Origin: Lepisosteus oculatus
Lineage: Eukaryota > Chordata > Actinopteri > Semionotiformes > Lepisosteidae
Assembly: GCF_040954835.1 (NCBI RefSeq)
Contig: NC_090703.1
Coordinates: forward strand, 20,225,444 to 20,289,443
Direction of reading: 5' to 3'
DNA length: 64,000 nt
In this document: piece by piece, positions 33,801-64,000 of the stretch
Layout of the letters: the number at the start of each line of letters is the position of its first letter
How positions within the stretch are numbered: position 1 is the first letter of the stretch
The notes under the pieces: model-generated
The model's database searches: none
Told to the model about the DNA's origin: nothing
The model's input: only the letters and a program-made list of their open reading frames with translations
Made by a program: the position numbers and the translations under genes

Positions 33801-36800
33801 AATCGTTAAATAGGGGTTGGACTGTATTTAAGGCCTTCCCAATCATTTTGCAATTTTGGGGCTCGACCAACTTGTCTCCGTGGGTTATAGAACCAAACTA
33901 AATCCCCCTTTTCAAATGTCACTTTATCATCTTTCAGGTCATCTTGTCTTTTCATGTTTTCAGCAGCTGTTCTTAAATTATTCCTTGCAAAATCATGCAC
34001 ATTTTCAAGGACAGCTTGTACATAGTGAAGATGATCATCAAATCTTTTATTTTCTGTTGGGAGTACCACACAGTAACAAAACAAAAATGCAAAACTCTGC
34101 ATAAAGGTTCCCCAAGTGGGCCCAACAAAACTGTACTGAACAGTGGAAGTTACCCTTATTTAGGCGATTCATACACATAAGGAGTACGGAGTTCCTGTCC
34201 AAACATCAACAAAGCTGGGGTACATTTGATAGCCTCATGTCTAGTTGCACGATATTACATCAATACCATGGGAATACGTTTGTCCCAATCACATTGATGT
34301 TGCTGAAAAAACATAGCTATTAGGTTTTTAAATGTGCGAATGTAGCGATCCACCATTCTATTTGACTGAGGCCGTAATGGTGTGGTGCATTTTTTTGAAT
34401 TCCTAAAATTTGACCCACTCTTTGAAATACAGCAGATTCAAAATTTCTGCCCTGATCAGAATGTAGTTCACTGGGAATCCCGAATCAAGTGAACATTTGA
34501 TTCACCGGTACTTCAGCTACAGTGTTAGCTTCCCAATCCCTTATTGGATAAGCCTCTGGCCACTTAGAGAAATAGTCCATAGCTACTAGTAAATATTCAA
34601 AACCAGACTTTGATCTTGGGAAAGGCCGGCAATATCTATAGCTACCTTTTCCATGCAGTTACCCATAGTGTATGATTGTAACGGATCTCTTGGCTTTTTC
34701 TTAGGACTTTCCCTGGCTCCACAAACAGTGCATTTCCTGCACCATCTCTCCACATCCTGCCAGTAAGTCACCCAATAGTAGAGCTCTCTCACCTTATCCA
34801 GAGTTTTACCCACACCAAAATGTCCTGCAGTGGGCAAATTGTGAGACAGTGTTAATATTACATCTCTTAAGCTCTTTGGAACTAGAAATTAGTATTTGTA
34901 CATGTCCCCTGCTGGAGTTTCCCATCTCCAATACAATAATCCATTCCTGAGCTCCAGGCTGTCCCACTGAGCCCAATATGTCTTTATTTTCTGGCTTAGG
35001 GAAGAAAGGTCTTTCCAGCTGGGCTTAACCCCAGATGTTTTCCACTGTATAATGTGTCCTATAGTACCATCCATTATGCTTATTCTGGAGTTCTGTCGCT
35101 GAATATCCTGGCAACAGAGCTGTAGCATCAAAAGGCACTGCTGGCTCTGGCCTAGTCATCCTTAGAGCTCCACTGCACACAGTCTCAGTCTGTTTCATGA
35201 TTGGTGGTTTGGATTCAGTACCTTCTGCTCTGGCTTTGAGCAAAACGTACAAGCTAAAGCCCAACAAGGTCACCTGGACAATGCGTCTGCATTTTTGTGC
35301 TTAGCTCCATCTCTGAATTCAATTTTAAAGTTGTATTGTTGCAGACAGAGCACCCACCTGGTTAACTGTCCTACCAAGTTTTGGAATTGAAATAACGACT
35401 GTGATGCTGAGTGATCTATGCATACTGTAAACTGCTTACCACGCAGGTAATGGTGAAAATGATCAATGCTTCTGATTACAGCTAGTAGTTCCTTGCAAGT
35501 AACACAGTAGTTCAGCTCAGTTCCAGTGAATGTCTGACAGAAGTATGAGATGACTTTTTCTTGTCCATCCTGTACGTGAGACCAAATTCCTCCTAAGGCA
35601 TGCGCACTGGCATCTGTGTCTAGCAAGAAAGGCAGCTCGAACTGCGGAAAAACTAAGATTAGAGAGTCGATTCCTCCATTCTTACTGGATTTGTATGCTT
35701 GCAACACTATCTTTATTGGAACCTATTACCTTACCTTTCTGTGTTCGTGTCATTGATATTGAATTTCGCTAGCAATTTTTCCAAACAGCTTTTTGCTTCT
35801 TCCAAACAAAGGTTCATACAAGGATTTATTCTCTTACCTGCAGGACAGAGTGCCGTGGAGAAAGGCAAACTTGCGTAGGGCAAACTCTTTCTTGGACTTA
35901 TAGTTGAATGAATGGCCATCATCCACATACAGCTCTCCCTCTGCGCAGCCCTGCAGAGAGCACAGACAAAACTACAAGTAAAATCGCCACTTGAGTAAAG
36001 TACATCCTACCCTTTCTGCCTTGGTCTGTAAGGATCAGGATTCTGTATTGTTGTTTACAGTTACATGTTCTGTTCACACTTAATGCAGTCAGCACATTGC
36101 ATAATACAACACACATTCTTCATCTCTTAAAAACGAAAAGCTTCGACCTCTGGTTGTTCACTGTCCTTACAGTGATTCTGAAGAGAATAACATCACATTA
36201 CGGGAACAGTGAAGAAATTAAATGGGGCAAGGGGGTGCACGTGTAGCAAGAAGGCTGGATTCAGCCCGGTTCAGCCCAGATCAGTTTGGATCAGCATGGA
36301 CCAGCCCAGGTAAGCCTGAATCAGCTTGGATCATCTTGGATCAACCCAGATCAAAAACATTAATCTAGAATCCAAGGTATAAGAGAAACAACATGGAGGC
36401 TTGAGGAAGACGGGTTTGTGGATGTGAAAAGTGAAAGGTATTTGCTGAGGGACTCAAACTAGGGAAATTCTCACTAAGGAGACAGAAGAATGGGAATAGA
36501 AGGACAATTAGTGTGACATTAGAAGCAGTGATCACTTCAAACCTAATTACAATTCCATCAGAAATCTACTGGTTTTGTAAATAAAGTGAGTTCGGGCCTG
36601 TCTGTCCACCCCCTGAGTGACCAAAGTGCAGGAAAGGGAGCAGACCTTGGTGTCCAGTGCCACGGTCAGAGTGAAGGGCAGGAGCCACTGGTCAGCTGTG
36701 CATGTGCCAGCGCCCACTTTCCTGGGAACCACAGTGCCACCTCTCTGGAACAATGGGACCTGGGCAAACGGAGGAGAAACAGACTCTGAGTTCTCCTACT

Positions 36801-39800
36801 GCACCCCAGCAGAGTCCATGAAACATTGGAGGTGGTGTCATCTTGAAAGATGAGGAGCAAAGTACTTTGTGGTTTAAAAGTGCAATATGAATAAAACTAA
36901 TTGCAATTGTTATTAAGTGAAAACTGTAAAGTATTGATAAGACTGGTAAAGCCTTTAAATTCGGGGTACAATCACTTAATTGTCAAAGTATTGAAAACTT
37001 AAGCAGATATTCAGTGGTTATTTGGTAACACTTTGGTAAACACTACTTGGTAAATAGGCTGGAAAATACTCAGTCTTGCTCAACAATTGCTTCATACAAG
37101 TCTGCAACTGTCACTCGATTCAAAGGATTTCTCTCTAGAGCAACAAAGGGATGCAAGTGTAAAAATGTTCACAGGCACTGAAGACTCACGGTGTCCAAAG
37201 TAACAGGGATCCTGACAGTCCTTCCTCCTCCAAACCTCTGGAAGGTGTGGGTGTCGTACCAGCACTACAGGGAAAACCGACAGGTCATTACTCAGGAAGA
37301 CAAACCCCCCTTCCCTTAGCAAAACTGGCCTCCAAACAACTGAAATAACAGAAAAAAAAGAACTTAATTTTCAGTTTGGACAATGTCAGCTGCGTCATTA
37401 GCTGCGTCAGCTGTGGTAATTTAATCCACCAGGACTTGTCTGTCCGGGTTTGTTTGTGATCAAGATCCGCTGACCAATGTAAGACGGCAGACAGACTGAG
37501 GGTAAAGATTTGAGGTATTGTTTTATTTTCTTTTCAAGGCTGAATTTGAATAAATTGACCTTACTGTGATCACTCAACAAAACGTTCATCTAATATAATT
37601 AGTAAAACCTCGGGCAGATATTTATCATAAAATGTGAACTAACACACAGATGAAGAAGGTATTCTAACAGATCACTTTCTATAATGTTATTATATGAACA
37701 CAGGTGTCAGTCATCTAAAATGCATTATTTATGTGTGAAGTGAATGTATTATCTTTCCAGCATGCGAAAAAATCAAGTTGCCAAGGAAATGGTTTGTGCT
37801 AACACAAAATCTAATGACATTTCCCAATATTGCTGGAACACTGTGATTTGGGTATTGCAGAAATAATGTAGTATTACAAAGTTTTTAAAATGGAGCTGGA
37901 AGGATGTATTTTGGTTATATAAAATATAGAATTCATGTAATATTATAGCAAAGCTAAGAAATTAAAGTTGTGAACGTGTTTTTTTAAAGATGTTACTTGG
38001 GATATTTCAAGTGATTATTAGCATGTTAGAATTTTAAACTAAATTATATAACCCTCTGCTTTCCATTAATCAAAGCACCGATGCTTTTTTGTCATCTTAT
38101 ATGGTTGTTCTAGCCACATTGTAAGTTACCACTGTGAAAAAGCAAATCTGAAGTATCTACAATGGTGCCACAAAGTTAACACTTTTGGAACATTCCAACT
38201 CTTCTCTTTTCAGCTTTTTTTCATTGAATTGTATACTGAAACATCTTCTGATGTTTCAGTTTACAATTCAATGAAAAAAAGCTGAAAAGGCATGAATACT
38301 GTACAGTACCTCACACTGGTGACATTTGCAACAGCAACAAGAATAATTCAACAACCTGTATCCGATACCTAGGATACAGACATGGCAGATACAGTCAGAT
38401 AATACACAGATGTACCTAAAACTAGGCTTCACCAACCTGTTTTTTATAAGAGTAATAGTTTAAATATGTTTAAGTTTAAATAAAGTTAATAGTTTAAATA
38501 AAGGTTCACTCAAATAAGTAGGAGTTTGTGAGGTGCATGTTAGAATATATTTATTTTTAAATCATAGTCTTACCTCACCAGACCCAGGAAGTAAAACCTT
38601 TATCTTGGTGACTCCAGGATCAGTAACAGGGCAAGCCAGCAAAGCATTTCCTGCCATTTGAAACAACAATAAAATCCACAGAATATATCCTACTTTACAC
38701 TGCTTACACTGAATTCAGAGATGGAGCTACTGTTTCTTTTTATTATTCAGTATTATTTCACACAGTGACACATATGATACACACTTGGCTACGAAAAACT
38801 TCCTTTAATCTCTTCGCCCTGATAACTACCTGCAGACAAAAAGTGTTGACTTCCCAAGTCCTTCCAGTTGTCAAAGATAAGATCACTTTATTGGCCATAT
38901 ACAATTTCTTGCATTAGGAATTTGTGTTTTCACATACCCCAGCTTGCTCTCCATGAGACACACAGACAGGGAGAGTCAGCCATTTATAAGGCGCCCCTGG
39001 AGCAGCTGGGGTTAGGGGCCTTGTTCAGGGGCCTAACGGAGTAGGATTCCTCTGCCGGCCCCGAGATTCGAACCGGCAGACTTCCAGCCACAGGCATAGA
39101 TCCTCAGCCACAGAGCCACCACACGGCAAACCAGTTACAGTGATGTACACACCTATCATGTACTGGTCTTCCACTGCGAAGGTCTGGTGGTCTTGGGGGA
39201 ATTCTACCCACAGAGGCCTGAAAGGAGCAGAACAGTTTCAGCACCGCGGGGGGGTGCGGAGAGGAGCGTGGCAGCTGAAAGGAGCCCACGGGACGGTACC
39301 TCAGCGGGGGGCGGGCCGAGACGTGGGCCTGGCGGAAGAGGGAGTACCAGTAAGGGAGCAGGCAGTACCGCTCACAGACGGCTCGCCTCACGAGGCTGGT
39401 AACCTCCTCTCCGAACAGCCAGGGCTCGCGCCGCCGCGCCTGGCAGGCGGAGTGCCCTCGGAAAAAAGGCTGCAGCGCCCCCGCCTGGTACCAGCGCACC
39501 AGGAGCTCTGGGTCTGGGTCCTGGGTGAAACCCCCCACATCCGCTGAGAGGGGAGAGAGCAAGTGTCCATCATCACCTTCGCCCCTGTCAAGCATCTTTA
39601 TTCATTTCATTCACTGTAGCTCGGTCTCCTTACATCATTCACGCCAAGTGCTGGCTTAGTCTCCATGTTTCATTTAACTTCTGTACCATCTGCATGAGTA
39701 GAAATTGGGTAAGCATCGCTTTCCTGCTGTAGACATAAATACTTTATGGAAAACGCCCTGTAACTTAGACCAAAAACATGGCCAGAGGGAGCTTGAGGGA

Positions 39801-54800: not shown

Positions 54801-55601
54801 GTGATCAGCTGGGGTGCGATAAGGATAATACGTATATTATCCTTATCATAACATTTTATTACAAATTATTCTTAATTATAAGTTAATGAGGATGGTCTCC
54901 TGACATCCCAGGTTTAGTCACAACACTGGATTAGCTAACAATTCGAAGTGACCTGTAAAAATTCATTTAAAAATGTCTATAGGATTTTCAAACAAGACAA
55001 TAAAATACCCTTCTTATACAGTAACAAGCTGTTGTAAAAATCTGTATATTTCCATTTTATTATTTGATTTTTGTAATAGATTGAAATTAGTCACAATTCA
55101 TTAAAACAGATGATCGTACTGTTGCTACAGTTCACCAAAATCGCTTTAAAAAAAGTTTTGAACAGTTGTTTTATGTTGTGCTTGTAGAATGCTGAACTAT
55201 ATAATTGCTTATGAATGAGCATCTAGTGTATCGTTACAATATTGAAAACATATATATGCATTATCACTTATTCATCTGCTGCCTTTATAAACACAAAACA
55301 CAGGAAGCTACAGAAAATAGTTTTACGGAAAAAAACAGGCGTTAAACGTCAGGCTATAGAACCACCATCGCCTATCAGAAATATAAGGCATACCGTAAAT
55401 ATAGTGTAAAAAGATGACTGTAAATATACATTACTTTAAATACATATAATTTACTAAGTTTTCGAATAAATAACCACGATAAATATACACAGTGGAACAG
55501 GAAGCTTGCATGTAGCTTATCGGCACCGGTAGGAACAGAGACAATTTTGTGCTGACTACGTACCTTTCACCTGTCTCCGATACTTTTTGCTCAGATGCCA
55601 T
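30833..55601 (-). CDS. GANC: neutral alpha-glucosidase C (glycoside hydrolase family 31), complete
   Basis: GANC hydrolyses terminal alpha-1,4-glucose from glycogen or maltose-type substrates at neutral pH. Exons in transcript order: 55601-55571, 53592-53541, 52505-52397, 51794-51667, 51151-50969, 49744-49723, 49445-49382, 47025-46929, 45864-45684, 44990-44864, 43987-43752, 42361-42235, 41949-41870, 41333-41190, 40979-40883, 40434-40333, 39543-39300, 39217-39153, 38650-38574, 37264-37190, 36759-36646, 35950-35838, 31495-31392, 30942-30833. All are in phase, 893 aa; human is 914. There is an N-terminal beta-sandwich, then the catalytic barrel ([43 protein letters not shown] with nucleophile Asp490, AVWTGDN with acid/base Asp566, [20 protein letters not shown]), then C-terminal beta domains ([10 protein letters not shown]). 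There is no signal peptide ([10 protein letters not shown]), unlike the ER glucosidase II subunit GANAB. The TMEM87A neighbour also supports GANC. Confidence 0.95.
32981..33078. repeat. 98-bp direct repeat, copy 1
   Basis: This is about 90% identical to 34078-34175, in the same orientation and 1.1 kb apart. Shared phrases include 'aaaggttccccaagtgg' and 'aactgtactgaacagtggaa'. It lies outside the recognisable pol fragment. Confidence 0.85.
33760..35715 (-). mobile_element. degraded Ty3/Gypsy retrotransposon pol fragment (RNase H to integrase)
   Basis: The minus strand shows, in order, an RNase H-like region (about 35707-35270), a spacer, an integrase zinc-binding HHCC module (about 34837-34700), a broken integrase core, and an integrase C-terminal region (about 34060-33806). 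This is the Ty3/Gypsy order. The frame is interrupted by stops and frame shifts and by a 98-bp segment at 34078-34175 that does not fit the protein. No protease, no upstream reverse transcriptase, no primer-binding site and no LTR was recognised, so it is 5'-truncated and inactive. It lies in GANC intron 22, in the sense orientation of the gene. Confidence 0.85.
34078..34175. repeat. 98-bp direct repeat, copy 2, inside the integrase region
   Basis: This is the partner of 32981-33078. It interrupts the expected integrase reading between the catalytic core and the C-terminal region. It is either a small insertion in the element or a segment copied from it to 33 kb. Confidence 0.8.
36256..36355. 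repeat. ten-unit 10-bp tandem repeat
   Basis: The sequence breaks cleanly into ten consecutive 10-mers with consensus close to TGGATCAGCC: ggattcagcc, cggttcagcc, cagatcagtt, tggatcagca and so on. The period stays exactly 10 bp across the array. It lies in GANC intron 21, between exons 22 and 21. Confidence 0.85.
38206..38289. repeat. near-perfect inverted repeat, 40-bp arms, 4-nt loop
   Basis: Left arm 38206-38245 and right arm 38250-38289 are reverse complements with one mismatch, separated by 'ttct'. The arms begin and end with CTTTTCAGC and GCTGAAAAG. Pairing stops abruptly at both ends, and I see no flanking target duplication. It lies in GANC intron 19. Confidence 0.95.
38872..39126 (-). 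repeat. tRNA-headed SINE, minus orientation
   Basis: Read on the minus strand, the element starts with a tRNA-like head containing GTGGCTCTGTGGCTGAGG (box A-like) and GCCGGTTCGAATCTC (box B-like). The body and tail include the complements of 'gagagtcagccatttataag' and 'cactttattggccatataca'. Its head ends about 27 bp from the donor of GANC exon 18 (39153). A tail-like piece also occurs near 47640-47690. Confidence 0.65.
40333..40434 (-). other. GANC: GANC exon 16, acid/base catalytic residue
   Basis: This exon encodes GAVWTGDN, where the Asp (residue 566 of the assembled protein) is the expected GH31 proton donor. After it comes [19 protein letters not shown], a strongly conserved barrel segment. 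Its acceptor (CAAG/GAGCTG) is set by phase with exon 15, which ends AGA TTT G. Confidence 0.85.
41190..41333 (-). other. GANC: GANC exon 14, catalytic nucleophile
   Basis: This 48-codon exon encodes the GH31 signature [10 protein letters not shown]; the first Asp (residue 490 of the assembled protein) is the expected nucleophile. The exon ends at LHNLYGFYQ. Nothing in it suggests loss of activity. Confidence 0.9.
42042..42217. repeat. 55-bp tandem repeat, three full units plus a partial
   Basis: The core 'tttacagtagcagctacaca' starts at 42046, 42101 and 42156 (period 55), with a shortened, diverged unit at 42204. The array ends 17 bp from the splice donor of GANC exon 12 (42235), on the intron side. 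Confidence 0.9.
44100..44565. mobile_element. solo LTR of an LTR retrotransposon with target-site duplication
   Basis: The 466-bp unit begins TGTCACG and ends CTGACA, so its ends are the TG...CA type with inverted TGTCA/TGACA. It is flanked on both sides by the identical 5-bp CCTAG (44095-44099 and 44566-44570). There is no internal coding sequence, hence a solo LTR formed by recombination. It lies in GANC intron 10. A 5-bp duplication suits Ty3/Gypsy or a related group. Confidence 0.85.
45865..46928 (-). other. GANC: GANC intron 8, nothing recognised
   Basis: This is about 1 kb of AT-rich intron between exons 9 and 8. I found no repeat or RNA gene that I could name. Confidence 0.5.
47026..49381 (-). 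other. GANC: GANC intron 7, mostly unremarkable
   Basis: Apart from a LINE-2-like tail (47190-47350) and a short SINE-like tail near 47640-47690, I see no feature. Open frames at 48034-48300 and 48858-49211 have no family resemblance and are taken as chance. Confidence 0.5.
47190..47350 (+). repeat. LINE-2-type 3' tail fragment
   Basis: Contains 'ttaccacttcatccgattca', 'ggggagaacatccaaactcc' and 'actactgtgccactgtgcag', the usual phrases of this tail. It is a second, better-preserved relative of 14610-14805, in GANC intron 7. Confidence 0.65.
49723..49744 (-). other. GANC: 22-nt microexon of GANC (exon 6)
   Basis: The minus strand reads CTCCTCTCCACAG, then 22 nt encoding (S)TSSQKEE, then GTAACTTC. 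It joins in phase the exon ending CAC AG (50969) and the exon starting GAA GAT GAC (49445). Without it the frame would break. It falls in the Glu/Ser-rich linker where human GANC has a longer acidic stretch. Confidence 0.75.
52105..52370 (+). repeat. LINE-2-type 3' tail fragment, best preserved copy
   Basis: Contains 'atccattttctacctgctta', 'gccagtccattacaaggcac', 'tttggactgtgggaggaaac' and 'gagaacatacaaactccaca' in order. It ends about 27 bp from GANC exon 3 (52397-52505), inside intron 3. Confidence 0.75.
53820..54425 (-). repeat. 5S-rRNA-derived SINE (SINE3-like), copy 1
   Basis: On the minus strand the 5' head (about 54390-54325) resembles the 5S rRNA internal promoter: AAGCTAAGCAGGTGTGAGCC, then CTGGCCAG and GGAGACCTCTTAGGAAAG. 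The body is shared along its length with 59760-60350. The 3' end reads AAAGCACTTTGAGTGGAGTG and passes into an ATT/TTA-rich tail (53832-53866). Confidence 0.75.
54277..54291 (-). promoter_or_regulatory. CTCF-like motif inside the SINE (copy 1, weakened)
   Basis: The minus strand reads CCAGCAGGGGGTCCT, two changes from the CTCF core CCAGCAGGGGGCGCT that copy 2 carries intact. Binding is an inference from motif alone. Confidence 0.35.
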
Positions 55602-58163: not shown

Positions 58164-61100
58164 GCCTAGCAAATGCCCTTCTCTAGGGTGACTTAAAATA
58201 TACAATAACACATGAAGTAAAAACAAAAATAAGTCATTCAATACAATTGGAAAAATAAGTAAAAAAACAAAAATGACAAAAAAACAGTGAAAGCAGGTGT
58301 AAGGTAAAAGTGCAATGCTGGTGCTGGAGTAAAAATGATGTAAAATTTGCATCAAATGTAATGGGATAAGACTTTAAATAAGATAAGATAAGACTCTATT
58401 AATCCCAAAGGGAAATTGAGGATATGTAGGGAAACAATTTAAATAACCCTGTTAGAGAGGCCAGGTAAGTATTGAATACAGAGCAGGAAAGGTTTGAACT
58501 AGGTCTTTTTTAACACGGCATAGCAGCATTTTTGTCTTAAGCCTGAAAGCTTTAACTGCATAAAGTGCTTTTACTACATCTGCTGTGCAGATGCGCAGGC
58601 TAATGTTTTGTGCTCTTCTCGTCTCATACTGTGCTTCTCCATCTCTCAGTTCACCACACGAATTCCTGTGACAACACGATGAGCTTCAATGTCAGCTGGT
58701 ACCTGCGGTCCTCTGTGTGCTATAACGAAGTCTTCAACACTGCTGTTCGTATCACATGCTGTTTAACTCATTCACAGGGAATCATTTGGGACTTCAGTTT
58801 CATAGCAGTTTGTGTTTATGTCAGACTGTACAGGCTGCAATTACTGGTATTGCTGAGGAAGGAAATCAAAATATGAGATCACCGGAAAAGTTAGAGAACA
58901 AGCCATTTGGCCTACCTACCACAGGGCTATCTGGGCTGAGTCTATATACTGTGTGCAATTCACAGTTATGAAAATTGATTGTAATGTTACACAAATAATG
59001 TGTAGTAGGTACATACAATTTTCAGAACTGATGGCACGCTTATTGACCTGAACTGAAACAACTAAGTTGTTGCACTTTAGTGGGTCCATTCTAGTGGGCC
59101 ATAGTCTTTTAGCACGATCCAGGAAGTGGGAATTTATAGTTCTATAAGTGTAAAACACCACCAGGGGTACAGTAACTTGAACTAAGGAAATTGGGTTTTG
59201 AGCTGCATCCCATTGTCTTAGTCAATGAGGTTGATCCGTTAAAATCACAGCAGTGCTTTTTGAAACAAAAATCTGATTCTCTTCATCTAAGAAGACAATT
59301 CTTAACTAAAAATCTAATCTTAACTGATCAGGAGTTTAGTTGTATTTCAGATAAGTAAATGATTGAGGATGATTTACAGTAAAAGGCTTACTGTACGTAT
59401 TGAGACAGTAAAGTGAGATTTTTCATTTTTGCTGAGTACTAATGAACCTTGTATTTCAGATCGAAAGATAAATATGAGGCATGGGTACAGAATTTCGCTT
59501 TTGTTTCTGGGTTTTAATTTGCATAGATTTTTAGCCGAGTTAGAACAACAATGTTTTGTGTTCCATCCCTTCCTCCCCCAGTTTCAGGTTAGAATATGTA
59601 TTGAGACAAAATAGCTTTATGTGAATTTTATGCTGGTTTAATTTTACCGCGCACAGTATAGGACTCTGGGCCTGGGGCTCCTCAGTCCCAGGGCTGCTGT
59701 GTCCAAGCTAGAAAAATGGCTCAGGCCCTTGAGTGCAGGAGACACAAGTTCCCTGTGGGCTGAGACAGATAATTAATAATTATAATAATTGCTTACACTT
59801 GTATAGCGCTTTTCTGGACACTCCACTTAAAGCGCTTTACAGGTAATGGGGACTCCTCCCCACCACCACCAATGTGCAGCATCCACCTGGATGATGCGAC
59901 TGCAGCCATAGTGCACCAGAACTCTCACCACACATCAGTTATCAGTGGGGAGGAGAGCAGAGTAATGAAGCCAATTCATAGATGGGGATTATTAGGAGGC
60001 CATGATTGGTAAGGGCCAATGGGAAATTTGGCCAGGATGCCGGGGTTACACCCCTACCCTTTTCGAGAAACTCCCTGGGATTTTTAACGACCACAGAGAG
60101 TCAGGACCTCAGTTTTACGTCTCATCTGAAGGACGGCACCTGTTTACAGTATAGTGTCCCCGTCACTATATTGGGGCATTAGGACTCACATGGACCGGAG
60201 GGTGAGCGCCCCCTGCTGGCCTCACTAACAGCTCTTCCAACAGCAACCTTAGTTTTTCCCAGGAGGTCTCTCATCCAGGTACTGACCAGGCTCACACCAG
60301 CTTAGCTTCAGTGGGTTGCCAGTTGTGAGTTGCAGGGACGTGAGATGCGAGACATTTTGCTCGCTGATGGAAGACTGAACCCGATGCAGCAGGGCTAAGA
60401 TGGGGAGACAGTTGGCACAATGTGCCAGCCCCTACCACCCTGATCAAGCTACAGTTTTCAGTTGTCGAAGCAGTGACTGGAGTGTCTTGTTTCTTGTTAC
60501 TTTTCTGCCAGGATGGTGTGTTTAGAGTTTCGGAGTTTTTATAGAGGAGGATTTACTTTTGCTTTTGGCTAGCTCTTTGGTTTCAGGCAGGATTATTGGT
60601 AACAAGCTGGATTTTTAAAGCGTGATATGTTGTCTTTTGAACTATAACAGAGAAGAGGAAAAGGGCCAAAGATGTATAGTATTATTTTTACTATACATCA
60701 CAGACACTGTCTGTGTCTGGTTGTGCAAATTCACTCAAACTAAGCCTGTATGCTTGAACCGTCCAACACCTGGTGTTCATTTATCCCACAGTGGTGAAAC
60801 TGCTATGTGACTGAAGTCTTACCTGTTTCTTTGAATTTATGTTGACATGCTATAGGTTTTAAAAAGCGGAATTTGACTTTGTAATTTATTTTTTCATATT
60901 CTGACCATATTACATGAGTTCTTTCCGATTCTCAGTTTTCAATTTCTACTAGGTGTTTGCTAGTGCTATAAAATGGCGTCTTCTTAAGGCTGCTAGTGGA
61001 TAGATACTATTCCACGATATCTCGGCACTCAGTACAGAGAGGAACTTAGGCAAGCGTGATACTTTGCTGAAATCCAGTCTTGCTTAAGTTCACTCTTAAT

Positions 61101-62975: not shown

Positions 62976-64000
62976 GTAAGTAGGCTACCTAATTTTTACC
63001 TGCAAACCACATCACATTACATGAGAGAATAAAGCTTTCTATATGTAGACTTCTTCTACATATAGAGTTTTTCCATCTTAGGAGGAAGGAAATAACTTTC
63101 AGAAATAATATTGAAATAAGCCCACAAACTTTTTTTAAAAAAGGAAATTTAAAGAGAGCAGAGAGGGAGAGTAGGGTAAGCTCTTTGTGTTTTTCTTTAA
63201 GGAAGGAGATCAGATATTGAAAAGGAGAAAACTGAAATAATCATTAGTATTATACCGAATGCTTATCTCGTGAAGCAACGCCAACAATCGGCAGAGCAAC
63301 AATCATTTGGTGGCTACAAAATGGTCCAGGCAGAAAGAAAAACTGAAAATGAAAACATAGCTTTGTGCTGTCAGTCATTACAAATTACCTCTTGACATGA
63401 TTAACAGGTTTAGCTTGCATAACCGACACAGCCTTATCATCTGCCAATACAGCGCGGCCATACTGCCTGCTAACTCACCAGCATTGCTGAATGTAAGGCA
63501 GTGAAAATGTGCTGTCAGAGTGATGACGTTGGATGGTTGGGTTGGCTGGGGAAAACCAAGGGTCTGGCAGAATGAAATAAATAAAGGACACCTCTCTTCT
63601 CAGACATGGTGATCAGGAAGTGACTGAGTGGTGGGTGTTGCTGTCATGTGAGAAACAAGAATGAAAATGAAGAAAGTAGAAACCCCTCAAAAAACATGTT
63701 AGTAGATAGGAGGCTGCAGATGAGCTCTAATTCCTTGCTGTTATTTGTGTGTAGTTGTTAGTTTGTGTAGAGACAACCATATTAGAACATAATTGAAGTT
63801 ACAAATGTTCAACTTGCCTTTGGTAGGAGGGAGGTCATTGATGGAAGGCTCTTGTCCAGCCTATTCTTGAAAGATCCTAAATATTCCATTACAGTGTCAT
63901 GGCTGTGTAGCTCGTTCCACACACCCACAACCCTTTGTTTGAAGAAACGTCTCCTGATTTCTCTCTTAACTACACTGCCCTTTCATTTCCATTGGTGTTG
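62976..64000 (+). other. TMEM87A: TMEM87A intron 5 (partial)
   Basis: No further exon is recognised to the window end. The last 170 bp are a dispersed repeat. Confidence 0.6.
63830..64000. repeat. dispersed repeat fragment, cut by the window edge
   Basis: Phrases 'ctcgttccacacacccacaa', 'ccctttgtttgaagaaacg' and 'tctcctgatttct' are those of a repeat widespread in fish introns, as I remember it. A shorter relative is at 18118-18235. Confidence 0.5.

Follow-up and report, generated by a model that had tools for sequence, protein, structure and literature searches.

The window analyzed here is a stretch of 64,000 nucleotides from Lepisosteus oculatus (contig NC_090703.1), and it contains a minus-strand gene whose exons were recognized from their translations. 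A peptide joined from these translations matched neutral alpha-glucosidase AB in the PDB with a best E value of 1.3e-18, and 20 distinct sequences of GH31 enzymes matched the same peptide at an E value of 0.001 or below. On these matches, the gene is predicted to be a GH31 relative resembling glucosidase II alpha/neutral alpha-glucosidase AB. One of its putative introns encloses a long and nearly perfect hairpin. The features of this region are as follows.

37190..37264, minus strand: predicted downstream coding exon of the GH31 gene, 25 protein letters, its end inferred from a GTGAG donor
37265..38573, minus strand: predicted GT-AG intron of 1309 bp with the hairpin inside, its boundaries taken from sequence and reading frame
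38574..38650, minus strand: predicted upstream coding exon of the GH31 gene, ending in GSGE, its start inferred from a CAG acceptor
38206..38245, plus strand: left arm of the hairpin, 40 nt
38246..38249, plus strand: loop of the hairpin, TTCT, 4 nt
38250..38289, plus strand: right arm of the hairpin, reverse-complementary to the left arm in 39 of 40 positions

The intron has a GC content of approximately 33% (measured over 37264-38571), and the hairpin starts 284 nt past the first base of the intron. An intronic placement, as proposed in the first-pass annotation, is supported by the splice signals and the reading frame, whereas its naming of the gene as GANC (as opposed to GANAB) and of the intron as number 19 is putative. 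Elsewhere in the window, positions 33809-35722 of the minus strand contain pieces in which we see a likeness to RNase H and integrase of a Ty3/gypsy-type LTR retrotransposon, and these lie just beyond an apparent exon of the GH31 gene at ~35.84-35.97 kb.

Together, the arms and loop comprise 84 bases that are almost perfectly self-complementary, and the location, arm length, single mismatch, and 4-nt spacer described at first sight were all verified. The lone mismatch is at pair 12 counted from the loop, the pair directly outside of the arms is a T opposite a G, and the hairpin includes a T7/A7 run. It was the longest of seven inverted pairs found in the 64-kb window with arms of at least 20 nt and no more than 400 nt apart. 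The number of hairpins expected by chance with at least 39 of 40 pairs and loops of 0-20 ranged with the assumed composition from ~4e-16 to 2e-13 per 64 kb. The folding energies that had been suggested as a check were -40.5 kcal/mol for the single-stranded DNA (z of -14.6 against 200 shuffles), and -55.2 and -54.2 kcal/mol for the RNA of the plus and minus strands, respectively. Chance is hence excluded as an explanation, as was originally argued. Two smaller palindromes are also found nearby, including TACTGTACAGTA at 38297-38308, which was read by eye, and CTGTATCC/GGATACAG at 38356-38379.

A genome-wide search for copies of one arm, a further check that had been suggested, was performed with the outer 28 nt. 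At three mismatches or fewer, this pattern had one forward and one reverse match in the 1.2-Gb genome, which are the two arms themselves, and a reversed-pattern control had none. DNA searches of the genome with the 84-bp hairpin and with a 201-bp sequence returned only the locus, once directly and once as the hairpin against its own complement; in such searches very common words are passed over and scoring is limited to the best candidates, and the inner 12 nt of the arm were covered by them alone. One arm is a reverse-complement copy of sequence 4 nt away (39 of 40 pairs), and the copied sequence is local, with no dispersed-repeat relatives found by the outer 28 nt or the 84-mer. At the edges, no direct repeat of at least 4 nt was found in common between 38186-38212 and 38284-38310, and the one, two, or three bases adjoining the two edges also differ (TCT and GCA), in agreement with the initial observation that no target duplication is visible.

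The best explanation of the hairpin is that one fold-back copying event left it as a scar, and we assign a probability of about 0.8 to this. At a stalled replication fork or a resected break, a 3' end may have bent back through a turn of 4 nt, or alternatively switched to the opposite strand. It would then have made a reverse-complement copy of approximately 40 nt of its own sequence and either gone back to the template or become joined to the other end, which would leave one arm followed by its inverted copy. One such event would account jointly for the tight loop, the near identity of the arms, their local origin, and the absence of a target duplication.

Published yardsticks for template switching and fold-back copying match the hairpin in kind. 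In the available part of a study of great apes, introns and the vicinity of poly(dA:dT) tracts are enriched in template-switch events, the majority of their patterns produce single inverted repeats, and the copied length has a median of 12 nt and a maximum of 128 (PMC7954356). The short-range switches of the four-point model in that study resemble the present case in that one event would yield a single nearby inverted repeat of no more than 128 nt within an intron, and the setting of the hairpin in an intron of 33% GC with a T7/A7 run is also in favor of fold-back copying. In contrast, the copy of approximately 40 nt is well above the great-ape median, which counts against this origin. Similarly, the accessible portion of a study on break repair in yeast describes fold-back insertions at double-strand breaks, where inverted copies of 2 to ~150 bp are made beside the fold-back point, as may have happened here (PMC11724301). 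Most of the yeast copies are shorter than 14 bp, again a point against, and they are described with a 10-bp imperfect inverted microhomology and a 41-nt loop, whereas the loop here is 4 nt and any priming homology would be hidden within the arm. A survey across the tree of life, in the part consulted, reports a higher density of inverted repeats in introns than in exons of eukaryotes (PMC13155455). The same part of the survey reports that eukaryotic perfect inverted repeats are mostly without a spacer, which argues against a fold-back origin of a repeat with a 4-nt spacer.

A census of hairpins was performed in DNA sampled from the same genome. The fullest census covered 29 sequences (344 kb), namely the window and the sampled sequences L003 to L030, following earlier passes over 264 kb and 304 kb; L001 and L002 were left out because both repeat the locus. 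The 280 kb outside of the window were taken at round-number positions, of which 220 kb belong to C8, the contig that carries the window, and 60 kb to C1 through C6; the sampling was hence not random with respect to the genome. An ungapped scan of the 344 kb (score of at least 14, loop of up to 40) identified seven hairpins, as listed below.

38206..38289 of the window: the hairpin under study
L023:980-1085 (C1, ~5.001 Mb): 51-bp arms with one mismatch and a 4-nt loop, TGGG
L023: an ATT simple repeat
L028: a copy of a repeat family
L004 (two hairpins) and L018 (one hairpin): three weaker hairpins, arm lengths 14, 15, and 27 nt, loop lengths 14-30

The hairpin at L023:980-1085 is of a like build and unrelated in sequence to the one under study, and a DNA search of the genome returned only itself; its existence counts in favor of fold-back copying. 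The motif CTGTCAG occurs both in its left flank and where its right arm ends. It was the only further single-copy hairpin of such build in 280 kb, with none in the 220 kb of C8 and one in the 60 kb elsewhere. This one hairpin, which was not preselected, extrapolates to a genome-wide count of ~4,300, and an unusual density is not claimed because the 95% range of ~110 to 24,000 is too wide. In addition, the last 10 kb of the window contains smaller perfect hairpins at 54818-54847 (13-bp stem, loop of 4), 63038-63066 (12-bp stem, loop of 5), and 60671-60699 (11-bp stem, loop of 7).

In a gapped scan of the 344 kb with simple sequence removed, inverted repeats were compared to mirror repeats. Their respective counts were 24 and 21 at a score of at least 11, 8 and 4 at 14, 5 and 2 at 20, and 3 and 0 at 25; they are thus nearly equal at a score of 11 and diverge only higher up. 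The third inverted hit at a score of 25 (L028:7378-7501) is a further repeat-family copy, and two of the high-scoring inverted hits belong to a single repeat family. Both the near equality at the lowest score and the shared family of the two higher hits count against fold-back copying.

Short perfect inverted repeats (stem of at least 10, loop of 3-10) were also counted. The hairpin under study is among those counted, as is, in the 304-kb comparison to mirror repeats, the hairpin of L023. Under a looser filter, 18 were found in 264 kb compared to 3.7 under a first-order Markov null (mean of 10 rounds). For stems of at least 10 in 304 kb, inverted and mirror repeats numbered 19 and 4 with the strictest filter of simple sequence, 20 and 7 with each of two looser filters, and 24 and 14 unfiltered. 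The corresponding counts for stems of at least 11, from the strictest filter to none, were 7 and 3, 8 and 5, 8 and 5, and 10 and 9, and for unfiltered stems of 12 they were 5 and 6. In non-simple sequence, the excess of inverted repeats at a stem of 10 is clear, yet it amounts to few repeats and varies with the filter. An ongoing fold-back process would give such an excess, which therefore counts in favor of fold-back copying; its dependence on the filter, and its disappearance without a filter at stems of 11 and 12, count against it.

Three other readings of the hairpin were considered. It could be a very short foldback MITE, with the arms as the terminal inverted repeats of a transposed element. 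Palindromic MITEs such as MADE1 are ~80 bp and multicopy, and have TA target duplications. The hairpin shares their short and nearly fully palindromic shape, and the genome does contain dispersed foldback-like repeats. One of these, an abundant family, was observed at L028:1665-1782, L028:7354-7571, L004:6313-6428, L026:9611-9813, and positions 1057-1160 of the window, with a CTGAAAAG...CTTTTCAG palindrome flanked by ends such as GGTTTATTCC...GGAATAAACC; a genome-wide search with L028:1665-1782 returned 2370 first-look candidates, 40 of which were scored. In addition, an exact 17-mer at 38200-38216, across the left edge of the hairpin, is also found in this family (E value of 0.003 in 344 kb), and it weakly favors the left arm as the older sequence. 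The 17-mer, together with a look at the right flank, had led us to consider an insertion of the hairpin into an old copy of the L028-type repeat. A profile of the family, built from seven stretches of four source sequences, was compared to the flanks after joining: among ~345 kb, two joins had E values of 4 (join_keep9) and 6 (join_keep8), the third (join_drop84) was not among the matches at an E value of up to 100, and the unjoined site in the window had an E value of 24. As the values for the joined flanks are not significant, a location within such a copy is not claimed, and they also speak against a MITE. Rather than many copies with shared ends, the genome searches with the outer 28 nt, the 84-mer, and the 201-mer gave the locus only, and no target-site duplication of at least 4 nt marks its edges. 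On these two grounds the MITE reading was rejected, and we consider it extremely unlikely.

Alternatively, the hairpin could be the precursor of a functional small RNA, in which case Drosha and Dicer would process the folded intron transcript into a miRNA or siRNA and selection would maintain the pairing. The sense-strand RNA indeed forms a stable hairpin (z of -10.8 in a 184-nt context) within a gene, although the stability of the RNA on both strands follows from the sequence and is not evidence of use. For microRNA hairpins such as MIR633, an origin by template switching has been inferred (PMC8794818). Such hairpins are described there as near-perfect stem-loops in single-copy DNA with mismatches arising later, as in the present case. 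With Rfam covariance models, no match was found in the window at the gathering score. A relaxed search gave 36 sub-threshold rows of mixed plant, animal, and microbial hairpin models, most of them miRNAs, but every row reached at most 51% of its own cut-off, and the best (MIR837, E value of 1.3e-8) scored 46 bits compared to the 117 required; membership in a known RNA family was thus rejected. A typical animal pri-miRNA has a mismatch-containing stem of ~35 bp topped by a larger apical loop, to which a near-perfect 40-bp stem with a 4-nt loop bears little likeness, and the outer 28 nt of the arm have no related copy in this genome. A 2023 paper in PNAS reportedly describes de novo miRNAs from template switching. 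Overall, the hairpin has so far given no sign of function, and the small-RNA reading is judged very unlikely. A similarly low probability is given to an assembly or sequencing artefact. In its favor, fold-back chimeras of reads are a known class of artefacts. Against it, the arms differ at one internal base, the hairpin is only 84 bp and lies within an intron with intact splice signals, and the 280 kb sampled at round-number positions contained another hairpin of this sort, though artefacts could recur. Among the three origins named in the first-pass annotation, a snap-back duplication is the one that fits best, while the foldback MITE is contradicted and the small-RNA precursor is without support; we infer a copying event, its original arm and polymerase route, and an absence of function.

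The near identity of the arms provides a rough age for the hairpin. Their divergence at one of 40 pairs is 2.5% (95% range of 0.06 to 13.9%), which at an assumed rate of 1e-9 to 5e-9 per site per year corresponds to ~2.5 to 12.5 Myr; the extremes are 0.06 and 70 Myr. A later homogenization of the arms would make the hairpin appear younger than it is. A single mismatched pair among 40 thus spans a very wide range of ages and would fit both of the alternatives raised at the outset, youth and maintained pairing.

Fold-back copying is a known kind of mutation, and the hairpin alone represents a clear and possibly young case of how a long near-perfect hairpin could arise by one mutational step. If the density in the sampled DNA holds genome-wide, this would be a good genome in which to measure the birth rate of hairpins, their decay, and the fraction that become small-RNA genes. 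A broader proposition is that the genome carries thousands of single-copy near-perfect fold-backs of 40-50 bp with 4-nt loops, as the product of a lineage with unusually active or processive fold-back copying. We regard this as rather unlikely; if true, it would mean a large supply of ready-made dsRNA hairpins.
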